This document shows, in pieces, positions 16,823 through 34,942 of a stretch of 43,811 nt of DNA. The position numbers were made by a program, and so were the translations under genes. The notes under the pieces are model-generated. The model was given only the letters and a program-made list of their open reading frames with translations. It searched no databases and was not told the DNA's origin. This DNA is from Crocinitomicaceae bacterium (GTDB taxonomy: Bacteria; Bacteroidota; Bacteroidia; Flavobacteriales_D; Crocinitomicaceae): the NCBI GenBank assembly GCA_030730025.1, contig JANQWC010000012.1:145368-189178 (forward strand). Direction: 5' to 3'. How positions within the stretch are numbered: position 1 is the stretch's first letter; every line of letters starts with the position of its first letter.

Positions 16823-17560
16823 ATGAGACCAACATTTTTAAGCATCTTTTTTGGCTTGCTGCTCGCTGCCTGTGGCGACGACACCCCCACTGTACCAAAA
16901 GCGCAGATCCAAGTCAGCATGCAACCCGTCTATGGAACTCAGCCATTCTACATGGACAGCATATACACCACCCAAGAAGGCTACAAAATTAAATTCACCG
17001 AACTCAAGTGCTATTTTACGCTATTTGGCAATGGTTCCACTGCGCTACATCAGGCCGCCTTACTCGACTACAGAGAAACCGGTAGCCTGCTTTTCAAAAA
17101 AGAAGGCGACTACGCTTTGTTCAATAACTTAAGTGCTGTTCTCGGCGTAGACAGCAGCCTCAACCACCTCGACCCAAGTGCGTTTCCAAATGAAAGCCCA
17201 CTGAATATCAGCAATGCTGGCCCAATGCACTGGGGCTGGAACCCAGGCTATATTTTTATGAATGTCGAAGGCAAGGTTGATACCATTGTAGACGCCACCA
17301 CCAACCCCGACCTCTCTTTTAGTTTTCATATCGGCACCGATACCTATCTGCAAAGCCTGCAATTCAATGCTGTCAACTGGACAGACATCGGCAACCAAAC
17401 CCGCGAATTCAAACTCAAACTGGACTTACTCGCCTTTTTAGGCCAGGGCGCGAACAGCATCAACCTCAGTACAGAAAACCTCACCCACACCGCAGCTGGG
17501 CAAGAGGCCCTTACCCAAAAAGTCATCTCCAATTTTAAAAACGCCATTAGCCCTTACTAA
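16823..17560 (+). CDS. MbnP-like copper-binding lipoprotein
   Basis: A 245-residue protein with a lipoprotein signal (LSIFFGLLLAACGDD, Cys ~17). The mature part follows the MbnP family: IQVSMQPVYGTQPFYMDSIY at the start, IKFTELKCYFTL, and the signature MHWGWNPGYIFMNVEG (Trp137, Trp139). MbnP proteins bind copper at a site that includes a kynurenine made from Trp by the partner MbnH. Candidate targets here are Trp137, Trp139 and Trp186. The MbnH-like gene begins inside this stop codon (TAATG, 17560). No methanobactin genes are visible, so the pair probably handles copper independently. Confidence 0.85.
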   Translation: MRPTFLSIFFGLLLAACGDDTPTVPKAQIQVSMQPVYGTQPFYMDSIYTTQEGYKIKFTELKCYFTLFGNGSTALHQAALLDYRETGSLLFKKEGDYALFNNLSAVLGVDSSLNHLDPSAFPNESPLNISNAGPMHWGWNPGYIFMNVEGKVDTIVDATTNPDLSFSFHIGTDTYLQSLQFNAVNWTDIGNQTREFKLKLDLLAFLGQGANSINLSTENLTHTAAGQEALTQKVISNFKNAISPY

Positions 17561-18633
17561 TGAAAAGATTGCTTATATTCTTTAGCCTATTGCTTTTGTT
17601 TAGCGCTTGTCGCAAAGACAAAACTACTTTTCAGCCCACCCCCTATGCGCTAGAAATTCCAAGTCATTTTCCCGACATGATCATTCCGTCAGACAACCCC
17701 ATGACCCAAGAAGGTGTAGAACTCGGGCGCTGGTTGTTTTTTGAGAAAAGGCTCTCAGCCAACGACTCCATGAGCTGTGCTTCTTGTCATTTGGCACAAA
17801 GCAGCTTTTCGGATCCCAATAAATACTCTACCGGCATTGATGGCATTGCAGGCAACCGCAACTCTATGGCACTCATCAACCTCGGTTGGGACAACTTCTT
17901 TTTCTGGGACGGCCGTGCAAGCACACTCGAACAACAGATCCTCGAGCCCATTCCCAACCCCATTGAAATGCACCAAAGCTGGACCGACGCCGTCTATAAG
18001 CTCAACCTAGACATCAACTACCGCAACAAATTTTACCGCGCTTTTGGCGAACCCGGCATCGACTCTACAAAAGTCACCAAAGCCATTGCGCAGTTTATCC
18101 GCACCATGATCTCCGCATCGTCGAAATACGACGTCATGTACAAATACGAAAACGGGATGTCACTCACCACCCAAGAGCAAAGCGTTTTGCAAACTGTGGA
18201 TGTCGAAGAATGGGCCGGTTACGACCTCTTCAAAAGCCTCAATGGAGCCGATTGCTTTCACTGCCACAACGGGCCGCTCATGCGCGTCAAGAAATACAGC
18301 AACAACGGCTTAGACGCCAATTTCACCGACCTCGGGCGCGGCGCAGTAACTGGCAATCCGGAAGACAACGGTAAATTTAAAGTACCTACACTGCGCAATA
18401 TTGCACTGAGCGCGCCTTACATGCACGACGGCCGCTTTCAGACCCTCGACGAAGTCATCGAACACTACTCTAGCGGGGTGCACGTCTCCCCTACCATAGA
18501 CCCACTCATCGAGTTTGCCAACCAGGGCGGCGTTCAACTGAGCGCGCAAGAAAAATACTTGCTCAAAAAGTTTTTGCTCACCCTCACCGACAACTCCTTT
18601 ATTTCCAATCCGAATTTCAAAGACCCACACTAA
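17560..18633 (+). CDS. MbnH/MauG-like di-heme c-type cytochrome (peroxidase family) lipoprotein
   Basis: The 357-residue protein begins with a lipoprotein signal (LIFFSLLLLFSAC) and contains two c-heme motifs: SCASCH (~73-78) and DCFHCH. The intervening and later segments (GIDGIAGNRNSMALINL, FFWDGRASTLEQQILEPI, KVPTLRNIALSAPYMHDGR) are typical of bacterial di-heme cytochrome c peroxidases and MauG. Next to an MbnP-like gene, the most likely role is MbnH: oxidising a Trp of MbnP to kynurenine. It overlaps that gene by one base and is followed after one base by the next. Substrate assignment is by context and known MbnP/MbnH pairing. Confidence 0.88.
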   Translation: MKRLLIFFSLLLLFSACRKDKTTFQPTPYALEIPSHFPDMIIPSDNPMTQEGVELGRWLFFEKRLSANDSMSCASCHLAQSSFSDPNKYSTGIDGIAGNRNSMALINLGWDNFFFWDGRASTLEQQILEPIPNPIEMHQSWTDAVYKLNLDINYRNKFYRAFGEPGIDSTKVTKAIAQFIRTMISASSKYDVMYKYENGMSLTTQEQSVLQTVDVEEWAGYDLFKSLNGADCFHCHNGPLMRVKKYSNNGLDANFTDLGRGAVTGNPEDNGKFKVPTLRNIALSAPYMHDGRFQTLDEVIEHYSSGVHVSPTIDPLIEFANQGGVQLSAQEKYLLKKFLLTLTDNSFISNPNFKDPH

Positions 18634-18634
18634 C

Positions 18635-20050
18635 ATGAGCGCAAGTCGTTTAACCACCGAAGACAAAGCACTAAAAGTCAACCTCACACAAGATATCTAC
18701 GGCTGTTTTGCAGAAATTGGCGCCGGTCAGGAAGTGGCAGCCAACTTCTTCAAGGCTGGCGGAAGCTCAGGCACCATCGCCTACACGCAGTCTGCCTACG
18801 ACATGAAAGTATCGGACTCCATGTACGGAGAAACCGTCCGCTACGTCTGCGAAGAGCGCTTGCTAACGATGCTACAGACTGAATTCAAGCATCTTCAAAA
18901 AATTCTGCCCATCAAAAATAGAGAAGCGCGCTTTTTTACTTTTTGTAATACCGTAGAGTCACTGAACTACCACAAGACCAATCAAGGCCAGGGTTGGGTT
19001 GGCATTAGATTTCAACTGGGGCTCAACAAAAAACCAAACGACGTCATTTTGCACATCAAAATGCACGACAACAGCCACAAAGCACAACAAGAAGCGCTGG
19101 GTATTTTGGGCGTCAATCTGATTTATGCGTGTTATTTCCAATCGGGCAATATCGACGAATTTATCGATGGCATTGTACACCGCTTGCCACCAGATCGCAT
19201 GGAAATCGACATGTTGCGCATTTCCGGGCCGGATTTCGAGGATATGGACAACCGCATTATTGCGCTCAACTTGGTCAGACGCGGCATCACCAACGCCACC
19301 ATGTTCGACCTCGCGAAGAATGTCATGCAGCCCTCTACGGCCCTCTACAAGAAAAACATCTTGCTGATGAGAGGTCGGTTCAGACCTGTGACCAAAGTGC
19401 ATATCGACATGATCGAACGCGCCAGAGCTGCTTTTGCCAAAGAACATCGCGTCAAGCCAGAACAACTCGAGGTAGTTTTTGAACTCACGCTTAAAGACCT
19501 CACCGCCGATGGCAAAATTTCAGACAAAGACTTCCTAGACCGCGCCGAATTACTTGGCTCACTCGGCTATACCGTGATGGTATCGAACTACCTCAAGCAT
19601 TACAAAATGCTCGAATACCTCTCTTCGATTGCCCGTGGCAACTTAGTTGGTGTCATTATGGGTATTTATAATTTACACATCATTTTTGACGAAAAGTACT
19701 ACGACAACCTTCCGGGTGGTTTGCTCGAAGCGTTTGGACGCGGCTTTGGCCACAACGTCAAGTTGTATATTTATCCAGCCATCAATGTCGAAGATGGCAG
19801 CTTGTATCATTTAGGGAATATCAAACTACCTGAAAACCTCATTGGCCTACTCAATTACATGCAAGCCAACGACAAAATCACGGCCTTGCAAGAATACGAC
19901 CCAAGTTTGCTGCACATCTTGTCAGACGACGTCTTGAGTAAAATCAAAGCCAACGCAAATAGTTGGGAAGACGACGTTCCTTACGAAGTAGTGAAGGCCA
20001 TCAAATTTTTTGAACTCTTTGGCTACCAGCAAAAACTGGAAACCCACTAA
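18635..20050 (+). CDS. Conserved cytoplasmic protein of unknown function
   Basis: A 471-residue soluble protein without a signal peptide. It opens with IYGCFAEIGAGQEVAANFFK and AYDMKVSDSMYG, then RYVCEERLLTML, GWVGIRFQLG, EALGILGVNLIYACYF, EIDMLRISGPDFEDMDNR, LLMRGRFRPVTKVHIDM and LLEAFGRGFGHNVKLYIYP. I recognise these blocks from a widely distributed family often misnamed TonB-dependent receptor; there is no barrel, plug or signal here. The GRFRPVT segment loosely recalls nucleotidyltransferases, but I recall homologues lacking the histidine. The function is unknown. It lies in a tight run between the MbnH-like gene (1-base gap) and the WYL regulator (TAATG overlap). Confidence 0.8.
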   Translation: MSASRLTTEDKALKVNLTQDIYGCFAEIGAGQEVAANFFKAGGSSGTIAYTQSAYDMKVSDSMYGETVRYVCEERLLTMLQTEFKHLQKILPIKNREARFFTFCNTVESLNYHKTNQGQGWVGIRFQLGLNKKPNDVILHIKMHDNSHKAQQEALGILGVNLIYACYFQSGNIDEFIDGIVHRLPPDRMEIDMLRISGPDFEDMDNRIIALNLVRRGITNATMFDLAKNVMQPSTALYKKNILLMRGRFRPVTKVHIDMIERARAAFAKEHRVKPEQLEVVFELTLKDLTADGKISDKDFLDRAELLGSLGYTVMVSNYLKHYKMLEYLSSIARGNLVGVIMGIYNLHIIFDEKYYDNLPGGLLEAFGRGFGHNVKLYIYPAINVEDGSLYHLGNIKLPENLIGLLNYMQANDKITALQEYDPSLLHILSDDVLSKIKANANSWEDDVPYEVVKAIKFFELFGYQQKLETH

Positions 20051-25484: not shown

Positions 25485-26879
25485 ATGAAGCTTCACTACC
25501 TTTTCTTGTTATGCATCCTTCCATTCTTTGAAACAACATTGCATGCGCAAATACAAGGTACTTGGCACAGCAATTTTCAGGTGGCGGGCAACTCACTTTT
25601 GATGGACTTACAAATCGAAGGAGTAGGACGCGATGGCTCCGTTATTGTATCCATTCCAGATCAGCCGCAATTGAAGCCACAAACAATGGAAACCTACGCC
25701 CTTTTTTCGGACAGCCTTTGGTTCAATTGGAGTACTTTCGGCATCACCTATGCTGCCAAACTACAAGGCGATTCTTTAGTTGGAAATATGGCGCAATCGG
25801 GCCTCACTTGGAAGGCGGTCTTCTACAAGGAAGTTCAAACAATGAAGGAAGTACAAGCTAAGTTGCAAGACCCAAAAGCACCGTTTCCTTACCTTGAAAA
25901 AGAAATCGAGATTTCTACAGCAAAAAAAATCAAGATTTCGGGAAGCTTCATTTTGCCCGAATTGGAGAAATCAAGTGCCTTTCCACTCGTCGTTATGGTG
26001 TCCGGCTCAGGGGCGCAAGACCGCGACTGTCAAATATTGGGTCACAAACCCTTCTGGGTATTGGCTGATCATCTGGGCAGGAACGGCATTGCATCGTATC
26101 GCTATGATGACAGAGGCGTAGGGAAATCAGGTGGGAAATTCGAAAGCACTACACAAGTTGATTTTGCCAATGATTTGGTTGCCATTATTCGGTACTTCAA
26201 TAAAACGTATCCGAAAGCCAAGATTTATATCTACGGACACTCGGAAGGTGGCATGACCGCCCTGCGCGCCGCCGTACAGACCAAGAAGATTGCAGGAATT
26301 ATTGAAGCGGCTTCCGTGGGCACAAGTGGCAAAGAGGTACTCATTGAACAGCAATACCTCATCCCTGAAGCCATGGGTTATTCTAAAGAAGAATGTGCCT
26401 GGAACCAACGACTGTATCAAAAAGGTGCTGAAATTGCCCTCAATAGCACCAATACAACTTTTAACAAGGCATATAAAGCCTGGCTCACGCAAGTTTGGGA
26501 TAGCATTCCGACAAAACTACTAGATGGCGCATCACAAGAAGAACTCCTCACGCAAATGACGGTCTTCTTTGACCAAGAGTGGGCGCGTCAGTTTTTGGCT
26601 TTTGAGAGCAAAACATATCTCGCACAATTGAACTTGCCATTTTTAGTCATCAATGGATCTAAGGATGTTCAGGTTCCTGCGCTTTCGAATCAAGAAGGAT
26701 TCAAAAAAGCAATGAGTCCGGTATCTTTAGAGAAAAGTACTTTTTACGTTTTAGAAGGTGCCAATCATTTGTTTCAGCAGTGTAATGCATGCAACCTCGC
26801 TGAATATGCAAGCCTTGAGCAAACCCTAGACCCCACCGTTATGGATTGGGTCACAGCATGGATTCTGGCACAGCCGTAA
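25485..26879 (+). CDS. Exported alpha/beta hydrolase (esterase-like)
   Basis: The 464-residue protein has a signal peptide (LHYLFLLCILPFFETTLHAQ), an N-terminal beta-rich domain of ~110 residues (GTWHSNFQV ... GLTWKAVFY), then an alpha/beta-hydrolase fold: LVVMVSGSGAQDRD oxyanion region, YRYDDRGVGKS, GHSEGG with nucleophile Ser253, FLVINGSKDVQVPA with Asp394 and EGANHLFQ with His428. It is probably a periplasmic or exported esterase; the substrate is unknown. Its last 29 bases overlap the 3' end of the opposing LysR gene. Confidence 0.88.
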   Translation: MKLHYLFLLCILPFFETTLHAQIQGTWHSNFQVAGNSLLMDLQIEGVGRDGSVIVSIPDQPQLKPQTMETYALFSDSLWFNWSTFGITYAAKLQGDSLVGNMAQSGLTWKAVFYKEVQTMKEVQAKLQDPKAPFPYLEKEIEISTAKKIKISGSFILPELEKSSAFPLVVMVSGSGAQDRDCQILGHKPFWVLADHLGRNGIASYRYDDRGVGKSGGKFESTTQVDFANDLVAIIRYFNKTYPKAKIYIYGHSEGGMTALRAAVQTKKIAGIIEAASVGTSGKEVLIEQQYLIPEAMGYSKEECAWNQRLYQKGAEIALNSTNTTFNKAYKAWLTQVWDSIPTKLLDGASQEELLTQMTVFFDQEWARQFLAFESKTYLAQLNLPFLVINGSKDVQVPALSNQEGFKKAMSPVSLEKSTFYVLEGANHLFQQCNACNLAEYASLEQTLDPTVMDWVTAWILAQP

Positions 26880-27798
26880 GCCCATCGATATAGCCAAAAT
26901 TCTTTTCGATAATTTGCGGCATGTTTTGCTCCAAATAAGTTTTAAATGCTGCCGCCACACCACTGTGCTTCTTGCCTTTGGGCCATACCATGCGCCACAT
27001 AGATTCTAGCGGAAGGTCGGTCAATTTGGAGACGGTGAGTTGGCCCAGCTGCAGTTCGTTGCGAATACCGATCAGCGGCATGATTGAATAACCCAAACCG
27101 GCGATGAGCGCTTGCTTGACCGCTTCGTTGGACGTGAGCTCAATGTGGCGTCGAACCTGAATGTCGTGACCAGACAAGAATTCATCAAGAGCCTTTCGAG
27201 TGGCAGAGCCGGTTTCGCGCTTCACCCAAGTGATTTCTTCGAGTTCTTTGTGCCATGGACCTTTCTTAGAAAAAACAAGTGGTTCTTTGCCCACCAAATA
27301 CAATTGGTTTTTCATGCACGGAATTTCCTCTAAATTGAGTCGGTCTGGCAACACCGAAACCAATGAAAAATCGGTTTCATTGCGTTCTAAATTGAGTGTG
27401 ACGTTGGCGCGGTTGGAGACATCTAGCACCAATTCTACACCCGGATGCGCTTTCATAAAGTCCGCAAGAAGAAAAGGAATGATGTACTTGCCGGTAGAAA
27501 CGACACTAATCCGCAAGCGACCACTGAGTTGTCCTTTGTATTGCGATGTTTTATAGTTGATGGCGTAAACCTCTTCTAAAATCTTTTCTGCGGCAGCGGC
27601 AACTTCACGACCAAACTCTGTGACATATAATTTCTTGTTGACGATTTCAGTGAGTGGAATATCGAACTGATCTTGGAAATTCTTAAGCTGAATAGAAACA
27701 GCAGGCTGGGTTAAGAACAAAGCTTCTGCAGCGCGGGTAATGCTCTCCTTTTGAACAATTTTCAAAAAGATGCGGAGTTGATTGAGGGTGTAGTTCAT
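26851..27798 (-). CDS. LysR-family transcriptional regulator
   Basis: The 315-residue protein has an N-terminal winged HTH (LNQLRIFLKIVQKESITRAA, FLTQPAVSIQLKNFQDQF) and a C-terminal periplasmic-binding-type effector domain (LRISVVSTGKYIIPFLLADF, ALIAGLGYSIMPLIG). It is divergent from the three-gene run ending in an SbtA transporter, the usual arrangement of a LysR regulator and its target. In cyanobacteria LysR-type CcmR/CmpR regulators control bicarbonate-uptake genes including sbtA, so a bicarbonate-response role is plausible but inferred. Confidence 0.92.
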   Translation of the reverse strand: MNYTLNQLRIFLKIVQKESITRAAEALFLTQPAVSIQLKNFQDQFDIPLTEIVNKKLYVTEFGREVAAAAEKILEEVYAINYKTSQYKGQLSGRLRISVVSTGKYIIPFLLADFMKAHPGVELVLDVSNRANVTLNLERNETDFSLVSVLPDRLNLEEIPCMKNQLYLVGKEPLVFSKKGPWHKELEEITWVKRETGSATRKALDEFLSGHDIQVRRHIELTSNEAVKQALIAGLGYSIMPLIGIRNELQLGQLTVSKLTDLPLESMWRMVWPKGKKHSGVAAAFKTYLEQNMPQIIEKNFGYIDGLTAVPESML

Positions 27799-27881
27799 AA
27801 ATTATTTTAATGCTTGATATATTTTTATTATATATTTATATATGCAATTAATGTGCCAAATTTGCAAAAAAAATCGATTCC
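27799..27881. promoter_or_regulatory. Divergent AT-rich control region between lysR and the sbtA run
   Basis: This 83-base gap is very AT-rich. TTAATGCTTGATATA and TATATATGCAATTAA form a loose inverted repeat, a possible LysR site. CAAATTTG (27857-27864) is a one-mismatch -7 box for the rightward genes, consistent with an activator-dependent promoter. No perfect TAnnTTTG is present in either direction. Confidence 0.45.
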
Positions 27882-28166
27882 ATGATACAAGAAATTGAAT
27901 TAATTCAAAGTAGTTATCATCCTGAGGAAGCACTAGAGGTATTGGGCAACTTGATTCAACAAAAAATTGCCTACCATACCCAAAAAACGATCAGACACCA
28001 AGAAATGTTTGGAAGCCCAGACACGCAAGCCGAGCAAAGACTTGCTGAATTGCAAGCCATCAAAAAAAACCTCATCCAAGAACTCAAACAATTAGATCCC
28101 GCTACCCTGTTGCACATCAATGGCCATGTTTCCATCTCAGTTGTTACTCAGCAGCAAGCATCTTAA
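27882..28166 (+). CDS. Small helical protein upstream of DUF6671 and sbtA
   Basis: A 94-residue protein, mostly charged and predicted helical (HPEEALEVLGNLIQQKIAYH, RLAELQAIKKNLIQELKQLD), with no signal peptide or membrane segment. I recognise no family. It is first in the run divergent from the LysR gene and overlaps the DUF6671 gene by 47 bases, so the two are probably coupled. It is not a PII-like SbtB by pattern: the nucleotide-binding loops and beta-alpha-beta layout are not apparent. A regulatory or chaperone role is speculation. Confidence 0.7.
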   Translation: MIQEIELIQSSYHPEEALEVLGNLIQQKIAYHTQKTIRHQEMFGSPDTQAEQRLAELQAIKKNLIQELKQLDPATLLHINGHVSISVVTQQQAS

Positions 28167-28935
28167 GGAGCAAATTCTTCAGCCTTTGTTTGCACCCTAC
28201 GGCGTTGAATTGTTTGTTGAGAGCGGTTTTGACACCGATCAGTATGGTACATTTTGTGGGACCACGCCAAGAATGGAGGGTCCGCGGACAACTGTCAAAG
28301 AAAAATGCCTCGCAGGAATGACTTTTGCCAACAAGCGTCAAGGTCTTGCCAGTGAAGGCTCATTTGGGCCGCATCCGAGCAGTCCTTTTCTCAGCATCAA
28401 TGAAGAGTGGCTTGTGTATATTGACCTCGACCAAAACCTCGAAATATATGGCCACAGCGTCAGCATGGATCTTTGCCACCAAAAATTGGATTATCAAAGT
28501 TTGCAATTAAATGACTTTTTGAACCGAATCCAATTTGGGGCGCAAGGTTTGCTCTTCAAAGATGCCTCTACCGGCGCACTCATCCAAAAAGGCATTACAA
28601 ATGAGGAGCAACTCCAAGATTTGATCAAAGCATATCCGCAATGGGTCTTGGAAACAGAACTCAGGGCACACCTGAATCCGAAAAGACAAAAAAATATAGC
28701 CGCCGCCGGTAAAGATTTAATCGCTCGCATGCACAGCAAGTGTCCGAAATGCGCCCAACCAGACTTTTCAGTGAGCGCAACTAGTGGTCAGCTGCCCTGC
28801 AGTTGGTGCAAGCGCCCAACAAATAGCTATGCTTTTCTGGACTACACCTGCCAAAGCTGCGGCTTTGCAGAAAAGAAAATGCGGCCCGGACAGCAAACTG
28901 AAGACCCTCAATATTGCAACTATTGTAATCCCTAA
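28120..28935 (+). CDS. DUF6671-like protein with C-terminal zinc ribbons
   Basis: The 271-residue protein carries blocks I associate with DUF6671: LLLSSKHLKEQILQPLF, GFDTDQYGTFCGTTPR, CLAGMTFANKRQGLASEGSF and GPHPSSPFLSINEE. The C-terminal ~60 residues contain four Cys pairs (CPKC, CSWC, CQSC, CNYC), two likely zinc ribbons. The function is unknown. ATG 28126 is an alternative start. It overlaps the preceding small gene and precedes sbtA by 23 bases, in the same direction, which ties it to bicarbonate transport by context only. Confidence 0.8.
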   Translation: MAMFPSQLLLSSKHLKEQILQPLFAPYGVELFVESGFDTDQYGTFCGTTPRMEGPRTTVKEKCLAGMTFANKRQGLASEGSFGPHPSSPFLSINEEWLVYIDLDQNLEIYGHSVSMDLCHQKLDYQSLQLNDFLNRIQFGAQGLLFKDASTGALIQKGITNEEQLQDLIKAYPQWVLETELRAHLNPKRQKNIAAAGKDLIARMHSKCPKCAQPDFSVSATSGQLPCSWCKRPTNSYAFLDYTCQSCGFAEKKMRPGQQTEDPQYCNYCNP

Positions 28936-28958
28936 TCACTCAAATTCAAAAACAAAGA

Positions 28959-29918
28959 ATGAACTTAGACTTTTTATCGCACGACCTTAGCAACCCTACC
29001 ATCTTATTCTTTTTACTCGGCATTTTTGCTGTTATGATCAAAAGTGATCTCGAAATCCCGGAGTCCTCATTCAAATTTATTTCGCTTTACCTCTTGTTCT
29101 CGATTGGTTTTAGAGGCGGGCAAGAACTCCAACACAGCCCCTGGACCTCAGAAATTTCTTGGTCTTTGGTCTTTGGGATGGCCATTGCAGCTTGCATTCC
29201 GCTCTATAGTTTTTTCATCATCAAAAAACGCGTGGGCGTTTCAAATGCAGCAGCCATTGCAGCGGCATATGGCTCGGTGAGTGCAGTTACATTTGTGGCA
29301 GCCCTTTCTTTTTTGGAATTGCAAAACCTGGCCTTCAACGGACACATGGTAGCGGTCATGGCTTTTATGGAGTTTCCGGCTATCATTGTAGGGGTTTTGC
29401 TCTTGCGCATCTATGAAGACAACCAAAACAAATTTTCCTTACCCGAACTGCTCAGACACTCTTTGGCCAACGGCAGTGTTTTAATGATTATGGGAAGCTT
29501 GGTCATCGGTTTGCTTTCCGATAGCAAGCAAGCGGCAGATATTGCGCCTTTTACAACGGATATCTTCAAAGGATTTTTAGCGCTCTTTTTGCTTGAAATG
29601 GGCATGACAACCGCCAGACGCATCAAGTCTTTCAAGACACACGGTTGGGCCATGGCTGCATTTGCACTTTTGATTCCGGCGCTCAACGGTATAGTGGTTG
29701 CTTGGCTTTCACAGTTTGTGACGGCAGATGTCTCGAACCGTTTTGTATTTGCTGTTTTGGCAGCGAGCGCCTCTTATATTGCGGTTCCGGCAGCGATGCG
29801 CTTGGCTGCACCCAAAGCAGACCCGGGCTTGTATATTCCAATGGCCTTAGGCCTGACCTTCCCCTTTAACATCGCAATAGGGATGCCGCTTTATTACGGT
29901 GTCATCTCACTAAGCTAG
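28959..29918 (+). CDS. sbtA: Sodium-dependent bicarbonate transporter, SbtA family
   Basis: A 319-residue inner-membrane protein with about ten hydrophobic segments. Landmarks of the SbtA family are the start DFLSHDLSNPTILFFLLGIF, FLLLFSIGFRGGQEL-like GGQ region, NAAAIAAAYGSVSAVTFVAA, EFPAIIVGVLLL, and SYIAVPAAMRLAAP followed by GLTFPFNIAIGMPLYYG. SbtA takes up bicarbonate with sodium. The canonical cyanobacterial partner SbtB is absent; instead a 94-residue protein and a DUF6671 protein precede it. Its last 17 bases overlap the opposing TolC-like gene. No carbonic anhydrase was seen nearby. Confidence 0.9.
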   Translation: MNLDFLSHDLSNPTILFFLLGIFAVMIKSDLEIPESSFKFISLYLLFSIGFRGGQELQHSPWTSEISWSLVFGMAIAACIPLYSFFIIKKRVGVSNAAAIAAAYGSVSAVTFVAALSFLELQNLAFNGHMVAVMAFMEFPAIIVGVLLLRIYEDNQNKFSLPELLRHSLANGSVLMIMGSLVIGLLSDSKQAADIAPFTTDIFKGFLALFLLEMGMTTARRIKSFKTHGWAMAAFALLIPALNGIVVAWLSQFVTADVSNRFVFAVLAASASYIAVPAAMRLAAPKADPGLYIPMALGLTFPFNIAIGMPLYYGVISLS

Positions 29919-31299
29919 CTTGTAAGAACTCCCACTTGAGCCATAACTGCTCGCATTTGGCCTGGTATTCAAATACCTTTAAGGCCGCAACAAACGCAGC
30001 GCTTTCTCTCATATTGACCATGAAAAGCGAACTCTCTCCGGTCTCAAACAAATTGAGTTCTGCAGCCAACAGTTTCTTTGTGCTGGCAGCATTCTCCGTA
30101 AAGATGACTAATTGCTTTTGCGCATTGAGGTATTCGGCACGTGCAGAAAGCATCTTGGCTGTGAGCTCGGCCATTCGGTCTTGACGTTCAAAAGTAGTTT
30201 GCTCAATTTTCAGTTTGGTTTGTTGGACAGCCGCGCGTTCTTTGCGCAAAAATAAAGGCATTTGGGCCGAAACGCCCCATTTGTAATCATTGATAGAGAA
30301 TTGCGCGAGTGGATTGTATTGAATGGGTTCATTCAAGAAATTGTACTTCAATTCTATTTGCGGCTTGAGTTGTTCTTGATTGTAGCGTTTTTCAATAGCC
30401 AAGACATCGAGCTTGTAGGCGAGAATGCCTAAATAAGGATGCTGTTCGACCAAAGAATCTACAGCACCCGTGTAAATTGGCTTTGGCGCCTGACCAACAA
30501 GTGAAGCAGCAGAGAGTGGTTGCGTACTTGTATCGAGTTCTAAAGGGGTGCCATCTGACTTCCACAAATAACGATTCAAGAACGCACTCGCTACCGCCAA
30601 TTTGGCCTCTTGTTCGGCAAGTGCGGAGGCTCTAGTTTGGTATTGGATGGCCGCCTCTACAGTATCAATTACTGGGCGGTCACCGAGTTCGGCCATCTGG
30701 CGCATGGCCTCTAGCCGCACAGCACCAACAGCGAGCGCTTCTCTCAGCACCTCCCCTGCGTTGAATTGCAAATACCAATCCCAATAAGCGTAGCCCGCCT
30801 CTAAAACCAGTTCATTGAGCGCCAAGCGCTGTTCGAGCTGACTGCTTTGCAAATACACATTGGCCTTTTGCAATTCTGCACGGCGCTCATCGATGAGCAA
30901 CCCATTGCCGAGTTGTGCGCTCAAACCGCCATACCACAAGCCGTTTTGTGGCGTGAGGCCTTGCGGATCTAAATAAGCTCCCCTGTTTTGTTCCAAGCCC
31001 GTTTGCACACTCAAACCATACCAAGTTGGCACTTTGAGCTGGGCATCGGATAGGCTGTAATACATTTTATCTCCGTAGTATTTTTGGGAGAGGTCGTAAG
31101 CCAATTTCGGATCAAAACCGCCTCGGGCCTTGAGCACATAGGTTTGGGCAAATTCGGGAATGAGCTTAGCTTGCTTGGCGAGCGGATGCCCTTCGAGCAC
31201 TTGCAGCATAAAAGCCTCGGGGCGCATGATGTTTTCCTGCGACCACAAAGCATTGAGTACACAAAAAAAGAAACCTAAAATTGCGAACTTATTTCTCAT
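29902..31299 (-). CDS. TolC-family outer-membrane channel
   Basis: The 465-residue protein has a signal peptide (FAILGFFFCVLNALWSQ) and two related halves rich in long helices (QKANVYLQSSQLEQRLALNE; IEQTTFERQDRMAELTAKML), the outer-membrane-factor plan. It forms the exit duct for export systems. It is last in the TetR-ABC-HlyD-TolC operon, its start overlapping the HlyD gene by 11 bases, so all exporter parts are made together. Confidence 0.88.
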   Translation of the reverse strand: MRNKFAILGFFFCVLNALWSQENIMRPEAFMLQVLEGHPLAKQAKLIPEFAQTYVLKARGGFDPKLAYDLSQKYYGDKMYYSLSDAQLKVPTWYGLSVQTGLEQNRGAYLDPQGLTPQNGLWYGGLSAQLGNGLLIDERRAELQKANVYLQSSQLEQRLALNELVLEAGYAYWDWYLQFNAGEVLREALAVGAVRLEAMRQMAELGDRPVIDTVEAAIQYQTRASALAEQEAKLAVASAFLNRYLWKSDGTPLELDTSTQPLSAASLVGQAPKPIYTGAVDSLVEQHPYLGILAYKLDVLAIEKRYNQEQLKPQIELKYNFLNEPIQYNPLAQFSINDYKWGVSAQMPLFLRKERAAVQQTKLKIEQTTFERQDRMAELTAKMLSARAEYLNAQKQLVIFTENAASTKKLLAAELNLFETGESSLFMVNMRESAAFVAALKVFEYQAKCEQLWLKWEFLQASLVR

Positions 31300-32653
31300 T
31301 CTTGCTGGCTTTAGATTTGTTATTGGTATCGGGAACCTTGGCTTTGTAGTAATCTGGCGGGAAGCCGTTCACATTTCGCCAGAGTTCGTACCAAATAGGC
31401 ACGTCCTTGAGCAAGAGCATGGCGTAGGCACCGCCACCCACTCTCAAAGCCTCGGGCCATTTATTTTCTTTCGGATCTGGTGAGACCAGCACGCGAAACT
31501 CGCCATTTGCATTGGCAAACTGATCGATGGCAAAGACCGTTCCACCATAAGTACCGTAGCTCGTGTTGGGCCAGCCAGAGAACACAATTGCAGGCCAACC
31601 GTCGAACTGAATGCGCACGTGCTGCCCTACTTCTAGCAAGGGCAAATCCATTGGCCTGACATACATTTCTACCGCGAGGTCGTAGTTGGTAGGCATGATG
31701 GTCGCGATGGCTGTGCCTTGCTTGATGGTTTCACCAATGCCGCTAGACAATGTCTTGGCAATGCGGCCATCTTGCGGGGCTAGAATATAATACATCCCAT
31801 TTCGAATGGAGTAATTCGCCACCTGACTTTGCATTTTACTCACATCGATTTCGGCCTCATACATACTCGAGAGCGCCGTGAATTTTTCAGATTCAGCCTT
31901 AGATACTTCGTCTTGGAATTTGGTTTCCACCGCACTCAATTCCACTTTGGCTTCAATGATATCATTGCGACTCTGCAAAAACTTCTGTTGCGCACCAATC
32001 ATAGCCGCCTGTGCGCGCTGCATGGCAACCTTTCGGGTTTCCACTTCTGTTTTGGACTTGAGGTCTCTTTCGTAGAGTTTCTCGAAGCGTTCGTATTGGT
32101 CTTTGGCAATTTGGTAATTGAGGTTGGCGGCGTGGTTCTCAATGCTATCGGACTTCAGCTTGAGCTGGGCTTGCTGCGCCTTAATGCGCGCTTGTTGCAC
32201 CTTTAATTTACCCGTTGCAATGAGCGCATCTATGCGTGCGTCTAGCGCCTGTACTTTGTCGCTGTAAGAAACCACACTGAGCTCTTTGCTTTTGAGCTGA
32301 TCTTCGCTGCGGCCCACTAATTGGGGGTCAAAATAACCGTCCTTGATCTCGGAAATAAACATAATGGTGTCACCTTGCCGGACGAGGTCGCCTTCTTTCA
32401 CAAACCACTTCTCAATGCGGCCACCGATGAGCGCATTGATGGTTTGCGGACGTTGTTCAGGACGCAAAGTGAGTACTTCACCATTCGAGCGGATGTTTTG
32501 TGTCCAGGGCAAAACGAGCACCGTAAGCGAAACAACCAACAATGCATAGATGGTATTGCGCAACAACTTTTTGGGTGCCTTGTTGAGCATTTGTATGGCC
32601 ACCAGACCATCTGCCTCAATGTGATTGCGGTTGTGTGGAGAGAGATTTAACAT
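31289..32653 (-). CDS. HlyD-type membrane fusion (adaptor) protein
   Basis: The 454-residue protein has one N-terminal membrane helix (AIYALLVVSLTVLVLPW-like segment at ~34-52), a split biotinyl/lipoyl domain (GGRIEKWFVKEGDLVRQGDT; YILAPQDGRIAKTLSSGIGE), a long coiled-coil hairpin between them (IKAQQAQLKLKSDSIENHAA ... QSRNDIIEAKVELSAVET) and a C-terminal beta domain. It links the inner-membrane ABC protein to the TolC channel. It overlaps the ABC gene by 7 bases and the TolC gene by 11. Confidence 0.9.
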   Translation of the reverse strand: MLNLSPHNRNHIEADGLVAIQMLNKAPKKLLRNTIYALLVVSLTVLVLPWTQNIRSNGEVLTLRPEQRPQTINALIGGRIEKWFVKEGDLVRQGDTIMFISEIKDGYFDPQLVGRSEDQLKSKELSVVSYSDKVQALDARIDALIATGKLKVQQARIKAQQAQLKLKSDSIENHAANLNYQIAKDQYERFEKLYERDLKSKTEVETRKVAMQRAQAAMIGAQQKFLQSRNDIIEAKVELSAVETKFQDEVSKAESEKFTALSSMYEAEIDVSKMQSQVANYSIRNGMYYILAPQDGRIAKTLSSGIGETIKQGTAIATIMPTNYDLAVEMYVRPMDLPLLEVGQHVRIQFDGWPAIVFSGWPNTSYGTYGGTVFAIDQFANANGEFRVLVSPDPKENKWPEALRVGGGAYAMLLLKDVPIWYELWRNVNGFPPDYYKAKVPDTNNKSKASKNEK

Positions 32654-34281
32654 AAAATCAATTTTTCGTGGATGAGCGATACGTTATTTTCGTGGATACT
32701 GGCCAAAAGCAGCGTTCCTTTGAAGTTTTGTTGTAAATGGTTCAAAACCGCTTCTAGTTCGGTATGGGGTAGGTAATGGTTGTGGGTGTCCCAGAGCAAG
32801 ACGGCGGGTTGCGCAATCAAGGCACGACACAAAATTACCAAAGTGATCAGCTGGCGATCTAAAGTGCTCGCTTCTGGATTGAGCACTGTTTGGTACGCGT
32901 CTGTCAAGGCCAAGACGTGTTGGTCTAAACCAACTGCACGAGCCACCTCCAATACTTGTTCGACGGTATAGTTGCGTCCCATCGAAATATTCTCCAAGAC
33001 GGTGCCGTAAATCAGTTGGTCGTGGTGCGAGAGGCTGGCAATCTGCGCGCGTAAATGTTCCGGTTGCAAATTACTGGTCGGGACGCCATTGATGAGCACT
33101 TGGCCTTTATTGGGTAAGGCCATGGCGGCAATCATCAGAAATAAGCCCTGTGCCTGATTTCCTTTGAAATCTTGGATGTGATAAAACTTGCCTGCCTCAA
33201 AACGACACGTTAGGTTGCTCAAGAGCGGGGTGCGGCTCCAAGTTGTTTGGTATTCTAAGTGGTCAATTTCAATGGTGAGGGCGTCCGTTTTTTCAATGGT
33301 TAGCCCCTCTGTGGTATCTAAGGGTAAATCCGTGATTTCGCCAATTTTTTCGATTGCCGTGAGTACGTCATAAACCATCTCGAGGCTCACAATCAGTTTT
33401 TCTACTGAATTAAGAACCAATACAATGATGATTTCTGCCGCTACAAACTGACCAATGTTCATTTGCTGGTTCAACACAAGCAGGCCGCCGATAATCAGTA
33501 AAGCGAGGGCAATTAACACTTTAAAACCAATCAGGTAGATGTATTGCTGCACCAAAACCTTGAAATGCGCATCTCTCGATTTGAGATAGCCCTGCAGGTA
33601 GTCATCGCTGCGCTTCAATAAAATACCATTGCTGCCCAGGTGCTTGAACGTCATGCGGTTGCGCGCAATTTCTTCGAGCCAATTGGCCACCTTATACTTG
33701 TACTTGGACTCCTCTAAACTCGTGACAAAGCCACGCTTGGCCGTCATGCGAAAAATCCAAACGAGCAAAAGGAGAAGCGCAAACCCAAAAATGATGAAAA
33801 ACGGATGGTAAAACGAGAGCAAAATGAGACCAAAGAGGATCTGCAAAGAGGCTGCCGTAAAATCAATGAGCAATTTAGAGATGCCTTTTTGGATGGTGAG
33901 GGTGTCAAAAAAGCGGTTAGTCCATTCTGGGGCATAGCGCAGCAATAGTTCGCGCAGCTGAATTTTGGGAATGCGCGTGGCGAACTCCAACGACGAGCGC
34001 GCAAAGATGCGTTGTTGCAGGCTTTCAGTGATGCGCAGCTGTGCTATATTCATGTAGCCCGAAAATCCGATGGCAGAAACCACAAGCCCCACGAGTAAAA
34101 ACCAAGAGGTGCTCACTTTTCCAGCCTGAATAAAATTGATGATCGCCTGAATACCCAAGGGTAAGCCAAGACTCAGTACGCCACCAATAATGGCAAACAA
34201 ATAAATATCTGAGATGTCTTTGCTGTCGGGCTTAAGCAGTGCCCAAAAGCGGTCAAATGGTTTGGTGACGTCGTTATTCAT
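32647..34281 (-). CDS. ABC exporter-like protein with degenerate nucleotide-binding domain
   Basis: From ATG 34281 the protein has 544 residues: about six membrane helices (~25-290) and an ABC-type domain (~335-544). The domain keeps the fold (LLSNLTCRFEAGKFYHI, GQVLINGVPTSNL, GTVLENISMG), but the ATPase motifs are lost. The Walker A region reads QDFKGNQAQG (370-379) with no GK[ST]; the LSGGQ signature reads LDRQL (~474-478); Walker B ends LLWDTH, with Thr499 where the catalytic Glu should be. His530 of the H-loop remains. It cannot be expected to hydrolyse ATP as a homodimer. No N-terminal C39 peptidase is present. An upstream start at 34347 would overlap tetR by 74 bases and is rejected. 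Confidence 0.87.
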   Translation of the reverse strand: MNNDVTKPFDRFWALLKPDSKDISDIYLFAIIGGVLSLGLPLGIQAIINFIQAGKVSTSWFLLVGLVVSAIGFSGYMNIAQLRITESLQQRIFARSSLEFATRIPKIQLRELLLRYAPEWTNRFFDTLTIQKGISKLLIDFTAASLQILFGLILLSFYHPFFIIFGFALLLLLVWIFRMTAKRGFVTSLEESKYKYKVANWLEEIARNRMTFKHLGSNGILLKRSDDYLQGYLKSRDAHFKVLVQQYIYLIGFKVLIALALLIIGGLLVLNQQMNIGQFVAAEIIIVLVLNSVEKLIVSLEMVYDVLTAIEKIGEITDLPLDTTEGLTIEKTDALTIEIDHLEYQTTWSRTPLLSNLTCRFEAGKFYHIQDFKGNQAQGLFLMIAAMALPNKGQVLINGVPTSNLQPEHLRAQIASLSHHDQLIYGTVLENISMGRNYTVEQVLEVARAVGLDQHVLALTDAYQTVLNPEASTLDRQLITLVILCRALIAQPAVLLWDTHNHYLPHTELEAVLNHLQQNFKGTLLLASIHENNVSLIHEKLILC

Positions 34282-34942
34282 GGTCGAGGAAGCTAAAAAA
34301 TAATTGTGTATAAAAAACAGCCACCGCATCTTCTTGTTCGGAGGCATTGGTCACTTCTGGCAGGTGCTGACTAAAAAAACGCTGCTGCAAGCTGCCTTCA
34401 AGGAGCGTACTCACCAACATTTCAGGATACTTACAAGCTGGCTGATAAGCGCGCACAAGGTCGGAAATATAGCGTACAATTTCAGTGTAAATGGAATGGT
34501 AACCTGTTTGGTGGTCGCTGTCTACGGCCTTGGTTAAAAACACTTTCGGCGCTTCGTGAATGACAATATGCTGCAAGCGTTTCTCACTTGAAAAAGACAG
34601 GGAAGTGGCTTTCAAAATAAGAACTAATTCCAGTGCTTTCTCTAAACGCTCTTTCACTGAGCCACCTTGGGTTTGCAATAGCAAACGACACTCCAAACGC
34701 CCCCAATACCAATTGATCAAATACAATAGCAACTTTTGCTTGCTTGCAAAATAGCGGTACACCGATGCTTCGGTTGTGCCTACATACTGTGCGAGTTTTT
34801 TAAATGTAAACTGCTCAAAACCGAGTTCGTCTATCAAAAAAATACTGCCTTCGATGATGCGCTGCCCCAATTGCGTCGCTTGTGGGTTGCGCAACGCAAT
34901 AGCTTCAAGGACGGGAATCTGAAAACGATCTACGAGATCCAT
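34274..34942 (-). CDS. TetR-family regulator leading the export operon
   Basis: The 222-residue protein has a TetR-type N-terminal HTH (RIIEGSIFLIDELGFEQFTF, KKLAQYVGTTEASVYRYFAS, KQKLLLYLINWYW) and a helical ligand domain. It is the first gene of the operon, overlapping the ABC gene by 8 bases, so it probably represses its own operon. A palindrome overlapping the -7 box upstream is a fitting operator. Ligand unknown. Confidence 0.9.
   Translation of the reverse strand: MDLVDRFQIPVLEAIALRNPQATQLGQRIIEGSIFLIDELGFEQFTFKKLAQYVGTTEASVYRYFASKQKLLLYLINWYWGRLECRLLLQTQGGSVKERLEKALELVLILKATSLSFSSEKRLQHIVIHEAPKVFLTKAVDSDHQTGYHSIYTEIVRYISDLVRAYQPACKYPEMLVSTLLEGSLQQRFFSQHLPEVTNASEQEDAVAVFYTQLFFSFLDHE

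Follow-up and report, generated by a model that had tools for sequence, protein, structure and literature searches.

The window, the whole stretch of 43,811 nucleotides that was analysed, comes from contig 12 (JANQWC010000012.1, positions 145,368 to 189,178) of a Crocinitomicaceae bacterium (assembly GCA_030730025.1, a 1.78-Mb draft genome that is 81% complete). The locus described here consists of a gene for a LysR-type regulator and, divergent from it, an operon for a 94 amino acid (aa) protein, a DUF6671 protein and an SbtA-family transporter (Table 1). The segment 27799-29918 covers the spacer and the three plus strand genes, and the lysR gene is just outside it. The initial annotation had reported three tightly packed genes divergent from lysR, the first two overlapping by 47 bases; reading of the open reading frames (ORFs) together with Pfam matches confirmed the arrangement, and the overlap was read directly from the sequence. 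The overlapping ORFs are in different frames, and the sbtA ORF begins 23 bases past the DUF6671 stop. Isocitrate dehydrogenase, Sua5, dihydroorotase, biotin and carbonic anhydrase genes are all absent from the window's own locus, which we consider, with moderate confidence, to be a minimal copy of an inorganic-carbon-limitation locus of Bacteroidota.

Table 1. Features of the lysR-DUF6671-sbtA locus, in window positions.
Feature	Position	Strand	Remarks
LysR-type regulator, 315 aa	26851-27798	-	Divergent from operon; Pfam HTH_1 and LysR_substrate
Divergent spacer, 83 bases	27799-27881		Presumed LysR operator and promoter
TATATG, 16 bases, TTTGC	27839-27844, 27861-27865		In divergent spacer; same 16-base spacing as relatives
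94-aa protein, family without name, operon gene 1	27882-28166	+	Predicted beta-alpha-alpha-beta
DUF6671 ORF, 271 aa	28120-28935	+	Pfam PF20376
DUF6671 N-terminal domain, residues 1-207	28120-28740	+	Modelled ITPase/HAM1/Maf-like
DUF6671 C-terminal eight-Cys module, residues 208-271, and stop	28741-28935	+	Presumed zinc module
SbtA-family (PF05982) transporter, 319 aa	28959-29918	+	Pfam E 1.7e-113

Products of the locus

The transporter matches Sbt_1 (PF05982) over its full length (residues 13-316), scoring 379.5 bits against a cut-off of 27, and Slr1512 SbtA is its relative in the PDB (E value 3.6e-26). The HCO3- ligands found by docking in Slr1512 are Ser114, Tyr140, Ser324 and Ser327 (PMC8352866), none of them part of the Pfam definition. 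Two of the four, as S108 and S272, are kept in 43 full-length family copies including that of the window. The regulator matches LysR_substrate (4e-37) and HTH_1 (1e-15); against its nearest NCBIfam model, CbbR (NF045990), it scores 174 bits, far below the cut-off of 450 bits, and by that model it is not CbbR.

The DUF6671 ORF matches PF20376 with an E value of 1.3e-50 and 172.6 bits (cut-off 23.8), the profile covering residues 62-271. Its eight Cys, at residues 208, 211, 227, 230, 244, 247, 266 and 269, form four CxxC pairs that are unchanged in 59 of 59 full-length family copies and in the 49 sequences of an alignment, A1. They are the two zinc ribbons of the initial annotation; zinc-ribbon Pfam matches of this module are weak, and it presumably binds metal. 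Most of the protein, however, is a separate domain that the annotation had passed over, and the structure model combines a fold like that of inosine triphosphatase (ITPase) and Maf with the eight-Cys module. Residues invariant in A1 are H14, K16, G43, F45, R51, K62, ASEGSFG 77-83, H85, P86, E96 and D102. DUF6671 was also considered as a HAM1/ITPase homologue by sequence, which was rejected: hhalign against HAM1 (PF01725) gave a probability of 0.3% and an E value of 0.22, with a HAM1 side of only 10 sequences that passed the motif filter from 30 loci fetched. Neither Ham1p_like nor Maf is among the 25 listed of the 56 Pfam families matching A1 members, and a PDB profile search with A1 returned only weak matches (E value 0.11 or worse), mostly to zinc-binding proteins. 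One search found 450 DUF6671 proteins at an E value of 0.001 or better, none was confirmed in viral contigs, and no paper in the literature searched names the family. From the modelled fold, DUF6671 would most likely bind or process a nucleotide, with a part in pyrimidine/carbamoyl metabolism in addition to uptake, and a nucleotide-linked role is our working hypothesis for it.

The 94-aa ORF has no credible match in Pfam or NCBIfam (best Pfam E value 0.15). It had been described as helical, and its model (mean predicted local distance difference test score 91.6) does contain two helices, at 14-43 and 48-69, but these are flanked by strands at 2-12 and 77-85.

Co-occurrence with two unrelated transporters

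The same-family sample comprised 150 genomes, and the stretches around 61 DUF6671 genes were fetched, making 62 with the window; genomes and loci are referred to below by G and L numbers. DUF6671 was found in 62 genomes, DabA in 65 and SbtA in 52, or 50 after the matches of G112 and G133 (E value 5e-4, partial, two stops) had been dropped. Among the 62 stretches, 30 contain SbtA and 12 contain DabB-DabA, with LysR present in 11 of the 12. DabA/DabB pumps (DAB, MpsAB) are unrelated to SbtA, and in these 12 stretches they stand in its place. The DabA that adjoins DUF6671 belongs to one high-scoring subfamily, with CxDxR and H..C motifs in 12 of 12 copies and a PF10070 score of 872 bits in the one copy scanned. 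Operon-type DabA was defined as a score of at least 780.7 bits (14 genomes; next score 731.2), a boundary set after the loci had been seen. At six loci of the other DabA subfamily, DUF6671, LysR and the 94-aa gene are all absent, and the window's genome, as an 81%-complete draft, gave no PF10070 match.

The search of Bacteroidota for DUF6671 and the 94-aa family together with sbtA and lysR that the initial annotation had proposed was strongly positive. SbtA or operon-type DabA is present in 58 of the 62 DUF6671 genomes and in 5 of the 88 others, 83 of which have neither. Where the DUF6671 stretch has no transporter (20 genomes), SbtA or operon-type DabA was found in another stretch in 16, and the remaining 4 have neither. 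When transporter presence was shuffled within genera, at most 107 of the 150 genomes were concordant, against 141 observed, and 0 of 20,000 shuffles reached the observed value. Conservation of the neighbourhood is far beyond what chance would give.

Every one of the 36 genomes with the 94-aa family (36 of 150 by profile, 19 of 150 by single sequence) carries SbtA or operon-type DabA, and 34 carry DUF6671. The 94-aa gene shares a contig with the transporter in 32 of the 36 and with DUF6671 in 28 of the 34, and the family is found in none of the 4 DUF6671 genomes that have no such transporter. In G081, G127 and G139 it remains with SbtA while DUF6671 is on a different contig, and in G005 it follows DabB-DabA under LysR with no DUF6671. 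Members linked to SbtA and to DabA fall into largely separate similarity groups, the second group having 11 members, 9 of them at DabA. The 94-aa ORF is therefore a real gene family that follows the transporter; the protein most likely adjusts or assembles uptake, and a role as importer accessory is proposed for it. Two adjacent members of about 80 and 93 aa are present in L060, L061, L073, L094 and L109, and could form a heteromer.

Of 588 confirmed loci, the best 80 make up the named set, a selection that favours relatives of the query; genes were counted within 6 kb. The named loci include LysR in 43 (one of them, in L171, an unrelated LysR), SbtA and dihydroorotase in 40 each, the 94-aa gene in 38, Sua5 in 37 and isocitrate dehydrogenase in 21, and one or more of LysR, SbtA, Sua5, dihydroorotase and isocitrate dehydrogenase is present in 70 of the 80. 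The fullest arrangement is LysR, divergent from isocitrate dehydrogenase, 94-aa gene, DUF6671, Sua5, dihydroorotase and SbtA in that order, with parts missing variably. Flavobacterium omnivorum (L194) and F. sandaracinum (L181) are among the cultured species that carry a fuller version. All 38 named loci with a 94-aa gene have it directly upstream of DUF6671 on the same strand, often overlapping. Outside the named set it is found downstream in L075 and L086, on the opposite strand in L089 and following Sua5 in L136. Flanks of 6 kb or more on both sides were available for 54 named loci, and the 25 of these with a 94-aa gene include SbtA in 22 and LysR in 24, against 8 and 6 in the 29 that lack it. 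A second context, dihydroorotase directly upstream of DUF6671, is found in 17 of the 80, including Polaribacter and Algoriphagus, and no SbtA or DabA is present in those stretches (up to 7 kb per side, some cut).

DUF6671 is rare in the phylum sample (11 of 375 genomes, including the window's). Of 12 loci from the other 10 genomes, read in stretches of 9.5-11.5 kb, 11 have one or more of SbtA, DabA, LysR, Sua5, dihydroorotase and isocitrate dehydrogenase; a transporter, SbtA or DabA, is present in 6. The DUF6671 match of L143 is only a 43-residue remnant, beside Sua5. One named relative is L154, from a metagenome-assembled genome labelled 'Cryomorphaceae bacterium', with a DUF6671 protein 71% identical to that of the window. 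In the literature searched, judged by titles and the starts of abstracts, we found no Bacteroidota SbtA locus of this kind and no tie of DabA/DabB to DUF6671 or the 94-aa family.

Several other genes were noted, beside these transporters or elsewhere. Carbonic-anhydrase-like proteins of 163-185 aa are encoded beside DabA or SbtA in L067 (6103-6612; PF00484 E value 1e-6, the one scanned), L098 (5871-6416), L018 (833-1324) and L139 (2018-2575); in L067, L098 and L018 the gene is between transporter and DUF6671, the usual position of the 94-aa gene. A similar-looking 165-aa protein in L068 has no Pfam match. On another contig of the window's genome (L252, 4098-6262), a 509-aa membrane protein that reads as SulP-like is followed directly by a beta-carbonic anhydrase, and the pair is a possible second inorganic-carbon system. 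Within the window, genes for TolC-like, HlyD-like and ABC-transporter proteins and a TetR regulator (29902-34942) run towards sbtA, overlapping its end by 17 bases. The same export set adjoins DUF6671/SbtA loci in relatives, and is directly beside DUF6671, without SbtA, in L059, L065 and L102. At 16823-20050 an MbnP-family gene is followed directly by a MauG-type di-haem peroxidase gene and then by a gene for a 471-aa protein with no Pfam match; we take the first two to resemble the MbnP-MbnH pair of copper biology.

Shared operator-like sequence and added enzymes

The LysR proteins of SbtA loci in the family are 47-100% identical to that of the window and three full-length copies from DabAB loci are 51-56% identical, against only 22-28% for six other LysR genes in the fetched loci (including L136 and L171). 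Many of the LysR-divergent regions share an operator-like sequence. The comparison set 76 distinct divergent regions against 682 further spacers from these loci: the 22-base pattern CAAATATAAATAAAAATATATG was found with up to 2 mismatches in 34 of the 76, in 2 of the 682 and in 0 of 380 mononucleotide shuffles, counts that describe rather than test because the pattern was drawn from the same regions. The first gene downstream is SbtA, DabB, isocitrate dehydrogenase, DUF6671 or the 94-aa gene, and TTTG, which would fit the Bacteroidota -7 element, is exactly 16 bases past the operator in 50 of 52 regions with up to 5 mismatches. Better support for common control comes from the variety of first genes and the constant spacing. 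A pattern of spacing only, for which there was no chance control, was present in 61 of 86 regions: 20 of 22 with the 94-aa gene first, 15 of 20 with isocitrate dehydrogenase, 8 of 9 with DabB, 5 of 8 with DUF6671, only 3 of 11 with SbtA and 10 of 16 others. The window's spacer is near-identical to that of L154, and the three operon genes are probably jointly controlled.

All 56 full-length locus dihydroorotases, which are not all distinct because certain named loci coincide with G loci, carry a T/S-DDG motif; the window has none. The motif aligns with PDB chain 3mpg. According to PMC3880350, type-I dihydroorotase has Asp153 where the E. coli enzyme and CAD have a carboxylated Lys, 'shifted upstream', and the same relation is seen here between locus and other copies. 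The locus enzyme is a second copy in, for example, G054, G062, G084, G085, G100 and G290, and alignment with Lys-type copies from the same genomes shows the locus copies changed at the Lys position but conserved at the remaining aligned His and Asp ligands. Among 15 dihydroorotases examined outside the loci, 13 read GxK-xFxGSS, with the Lys, and 2 are of the Asp type. One of these, on contig 3 of G197, has a DUF6671 gene about 8 kb away; the other adjoins isocitrate dehydrogenase on contig 40 of G065, a genome whose DUF6671 is on a different contig. As judged from the motif, the Asp-type enzyme would be expected to assemble its active site without CO2. The G065 copy (L251, 6860-9805) is beside a 478-aa isocitrate dehydrogenase, and a gene that reads as biotin-carboxylase-like is two genes on; the window's genome has its isocitrate dehydrogenase in a setting like that of L251, with no Asp-type dihydroorotase.

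The loci encode a long form of Sua5; in G054, G216, G290 and others it comes on top of two short YrdC-type genes, and in the window's genus a long Sua5 is found outside the locus in G000, G065, G084, G092 and G100. Isocitrate dehydrogenase, of about 478 aa, is often just before the 94-aa gene or DUF6671. BioA, acyl-CoA carboxylase, CutA-like and carbonic-anhydrase-like genes are less frequent. Since Sua5 uses bicarbonate and biotin serves carboxylases, the theme shared by the extra enzymes is inorganic carbon.

Proposed response to inorganic-carbon limitation and alternative explanations

The explanation that we favour, and consider somewhat probable, is a locus controlled by LysR that responds to inorganic-carbon limitation. 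When CO2 or HCO3- is short, LysR would activate the divergent operon from the conserved operator and promoter, and the transporter, SbtA here and DabA/DabB in some relatives, would raise cytosolic bicarbonate; from its context, the window's transporter likely carries this ion. The bicarbonate would serve the HCO3-/CO2 needs of a heterotroph, which include carboxylases, carbamoyl phosphate, Sua5 and lysine carboxylation. Fuller loci would add a dihydroorotase that lacks the carboxylated-Lys position, Sua5, isocitrate dehydrogenase as a CO2 source and sometimes biotin or carbonic anhydrase genes. The 94-aa protein would go with the transporter and adjust or assemble uptake, and DUF6671 may bind or process a nucleotide and serve pyrimidine/carbamoyl metabolism as well as uptake.

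Several observations weigh against this explanation. DUF6671 occurs without either transporter in G040, G095, G119 and G148 (G095 and G119 being fragmented drafts), 5 transporter genomes have no DUF6671, and 10 of the 80 named loci have no core gene near it. The window's own operator copy has diverged, with 7 mismatches to the shared 22-mer, and the only dihydroorotase seen in its genome is of the Lys type and lies away from the locus, so that the isozyme argument is drawn from relatives. That the Lys is carboxylated in the Bacteroidota enzymes is likewise deduced, and the HxH motif reads QVH, the first His being Gln, in both the Asp-type locus copies shown and the Lys-type copies. The metal site of this branch is therefore unusual, and the locus enzymes were filed by the Asp motif and not as type-I members. 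Carbonic anhydrase is not lacking where the locus occurs: of the 19 genomes with no PF00484 match 10 have DUF6671, as do 52 of the 131 that have such a match (P 0.2), and the window's own genome has a carbonic anhydrase. How the regulator acts and on what signal, which ion is carried and what DUF6671 and the 94-aa protein do biochemically are all deduced from the genes. As a separate matter, a CO2 need arising from a missing carbonic anhydrase was considered over the 150 genomes and rejected (P 0.2 for DUF6671, 0.59 for the transporters).

In the 43 SbtA copies, Tyr140 of Slr1512 is replaced by M134 (one has L at 134) and Ser327 by A275, which is a further point against bicarbonate and the reason that the window's transporter was filed as a PF05982 member, not as a proven bicarbonate transporter. 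These two changed ligands, together with the recurrent isocitrate dehydrogenase, would suit a transporter that moves another anion in a locus serving, for example, 2-oxoglutarate or organic-acid balance. That is very unlikely in our estimate, as DabA/DabB substitute for SbtA under a similar LysR and operator, the locus dihydroorotase lacks the carboxylated-Lys position, and some loci hold carbonic anhydrase or carbonic-anhydrase-like genes. Limitation for zinc is the least credible of the alternatives and highly improbable: the locus would be a backup island like the Zur regulons of proteobacteria, which according to PMC2770081 hold PyrC and carbonic anhydrase paralogues, and the Asp-type dihydroorotase complex observed with one zinc (PMC3880350) would fit this. 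However, the recurrent regulator is a LysR, the constant partners are inorganic-carbon transporters, DUF6671 itself retains eight Cys, and the locus dihydroorotases differ at the Lys position with the other aligned His and Asp ligand positions kept.

The initial annotation placed DUF6671 and the small protein at the locus instead of SbtB, which in that form is not supported. Although no P-II match was found by Pfam or NCBIfam among the four window proteins (26851-29918), L141, from Bacteroidota outside the window's class, has SbtA, an SbtB-like P-II protein (PF00543, 7e-20), carbonic anhydrase, DUF6671, isocitrate dehydrogenase and LysR together. Neither protein simply replaces SbtB, and DUF6671 is not an SbtA-specific substitute for it, as it also accompanies DabA/DabB and lies beside dihydroorotase in stretches with no transporter. 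That the two proteins together are direct SbtB-like regulators of SbtA is accordingly rather improbable. Their adjoining, often overlapping genes would fit such a pair, as would G008 (L128), a genome of the same family without DUF6671 in which SbtA is followed by a weakly P-II-like protein (E value 0.002, below the Pfam cut-off), so that partners may alternate to some degree. Both proteins, however, accompany the unrelated DabA/DabB, DUF6671 and a P-II protein coexist in L141, the 17 dihydroorotase-DUF6671 stretches have neither transporter, and G081, G127 and G139 keep the 94-aa gene with SbtA, apart from DUF6671. CutA1-like proteins of 103-149 aa were seen in L060, L061, L074, L077, L078, L082, L085, L089, L100 and L105 (PF03091 E value 6e-6 for L089, below cut-off for L100), and nine of these ten loci hold SbtA. 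As CutA and PII share a fold, they could be SbtB analogues.

The dihydroorotase context would also suit a DUF6671 that is a nucleotide-processing enzyme, in house-cleaning or pyrimidine salvage, with dihydroorotase as its true partner and transport as a regulon neighbour and not a target. We regard this as unlikely, given the very tight co-occurrence of DUF6671 with the transporters and the absence of HAM1 profile homology (with only 10 usable HAM1 sequences); nor does a shared fold establish activity.

Returning to inorganic-carbon limitation, a wider proposal can be made, which is tentative and in our view doubtful. A Bacteroidota CO2-starvation regulon run by LysR might exchange CO2-requiring for CO2-independent enzymes, an Asp-type copy taking over from the Lys-type dihydroorotase, much as Zur regulons do with zinc enzymes, coupled to interchangeable bicarbonate importers; DUF6671 would be a new nucleotide-sensing or -processing branch of ITPase-like proteins, and the 94-aa family a new accessory of two unrelated transporters. 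Two Asp-type copies outside the counted loci and the unusual metal site of both enzyme types are the reasons for this caution. To our knowledge, little has been worked out about how non-autotrophs sense a need for bicarbonate and satisfy it. A LysR site common to interchangeable importers offers testable targets, and the locus yields function hypotheses for DUF6671 and for the unnamed 94-aa family. The backup enzyme suggests that cells short of CO2 may really face a failure of lysine carboxylation and answer it with this second copy. Together, the gene group and the enzyme suggest a programme for coping with inorganic-carbon scarcity.

Among known systems, the fold group of ITPase/HAM1, YjjX, Maf and HcgB is set apart from DUF6671 by the C-terminal eight-Cys module of the latter and its lack of HAM1 profile homology. 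Zur-controlled paralogue islands likewise place a backup isozyme, a PyrC paralogue, beside an importer, but the Bacteroidota locus has a LysR and a carbon transporter, and it is the carboxy-Lys position that is changed, with no loss of zinc ligands. In cyanobacteria, SbtA is under the LysR regulators CcmR and CmpR. The window's locus shares with the cyanobacterial SbtA-SbtB system a PF05982 transporter with a LysR regulator nearby, and differs in its Bacteroidota host, a LysR far under the CbbR cut-off, two changed positions among the four docked ligands and, in place of an operon with SbtB, two uncharacterised proteins between regulator and transporter.

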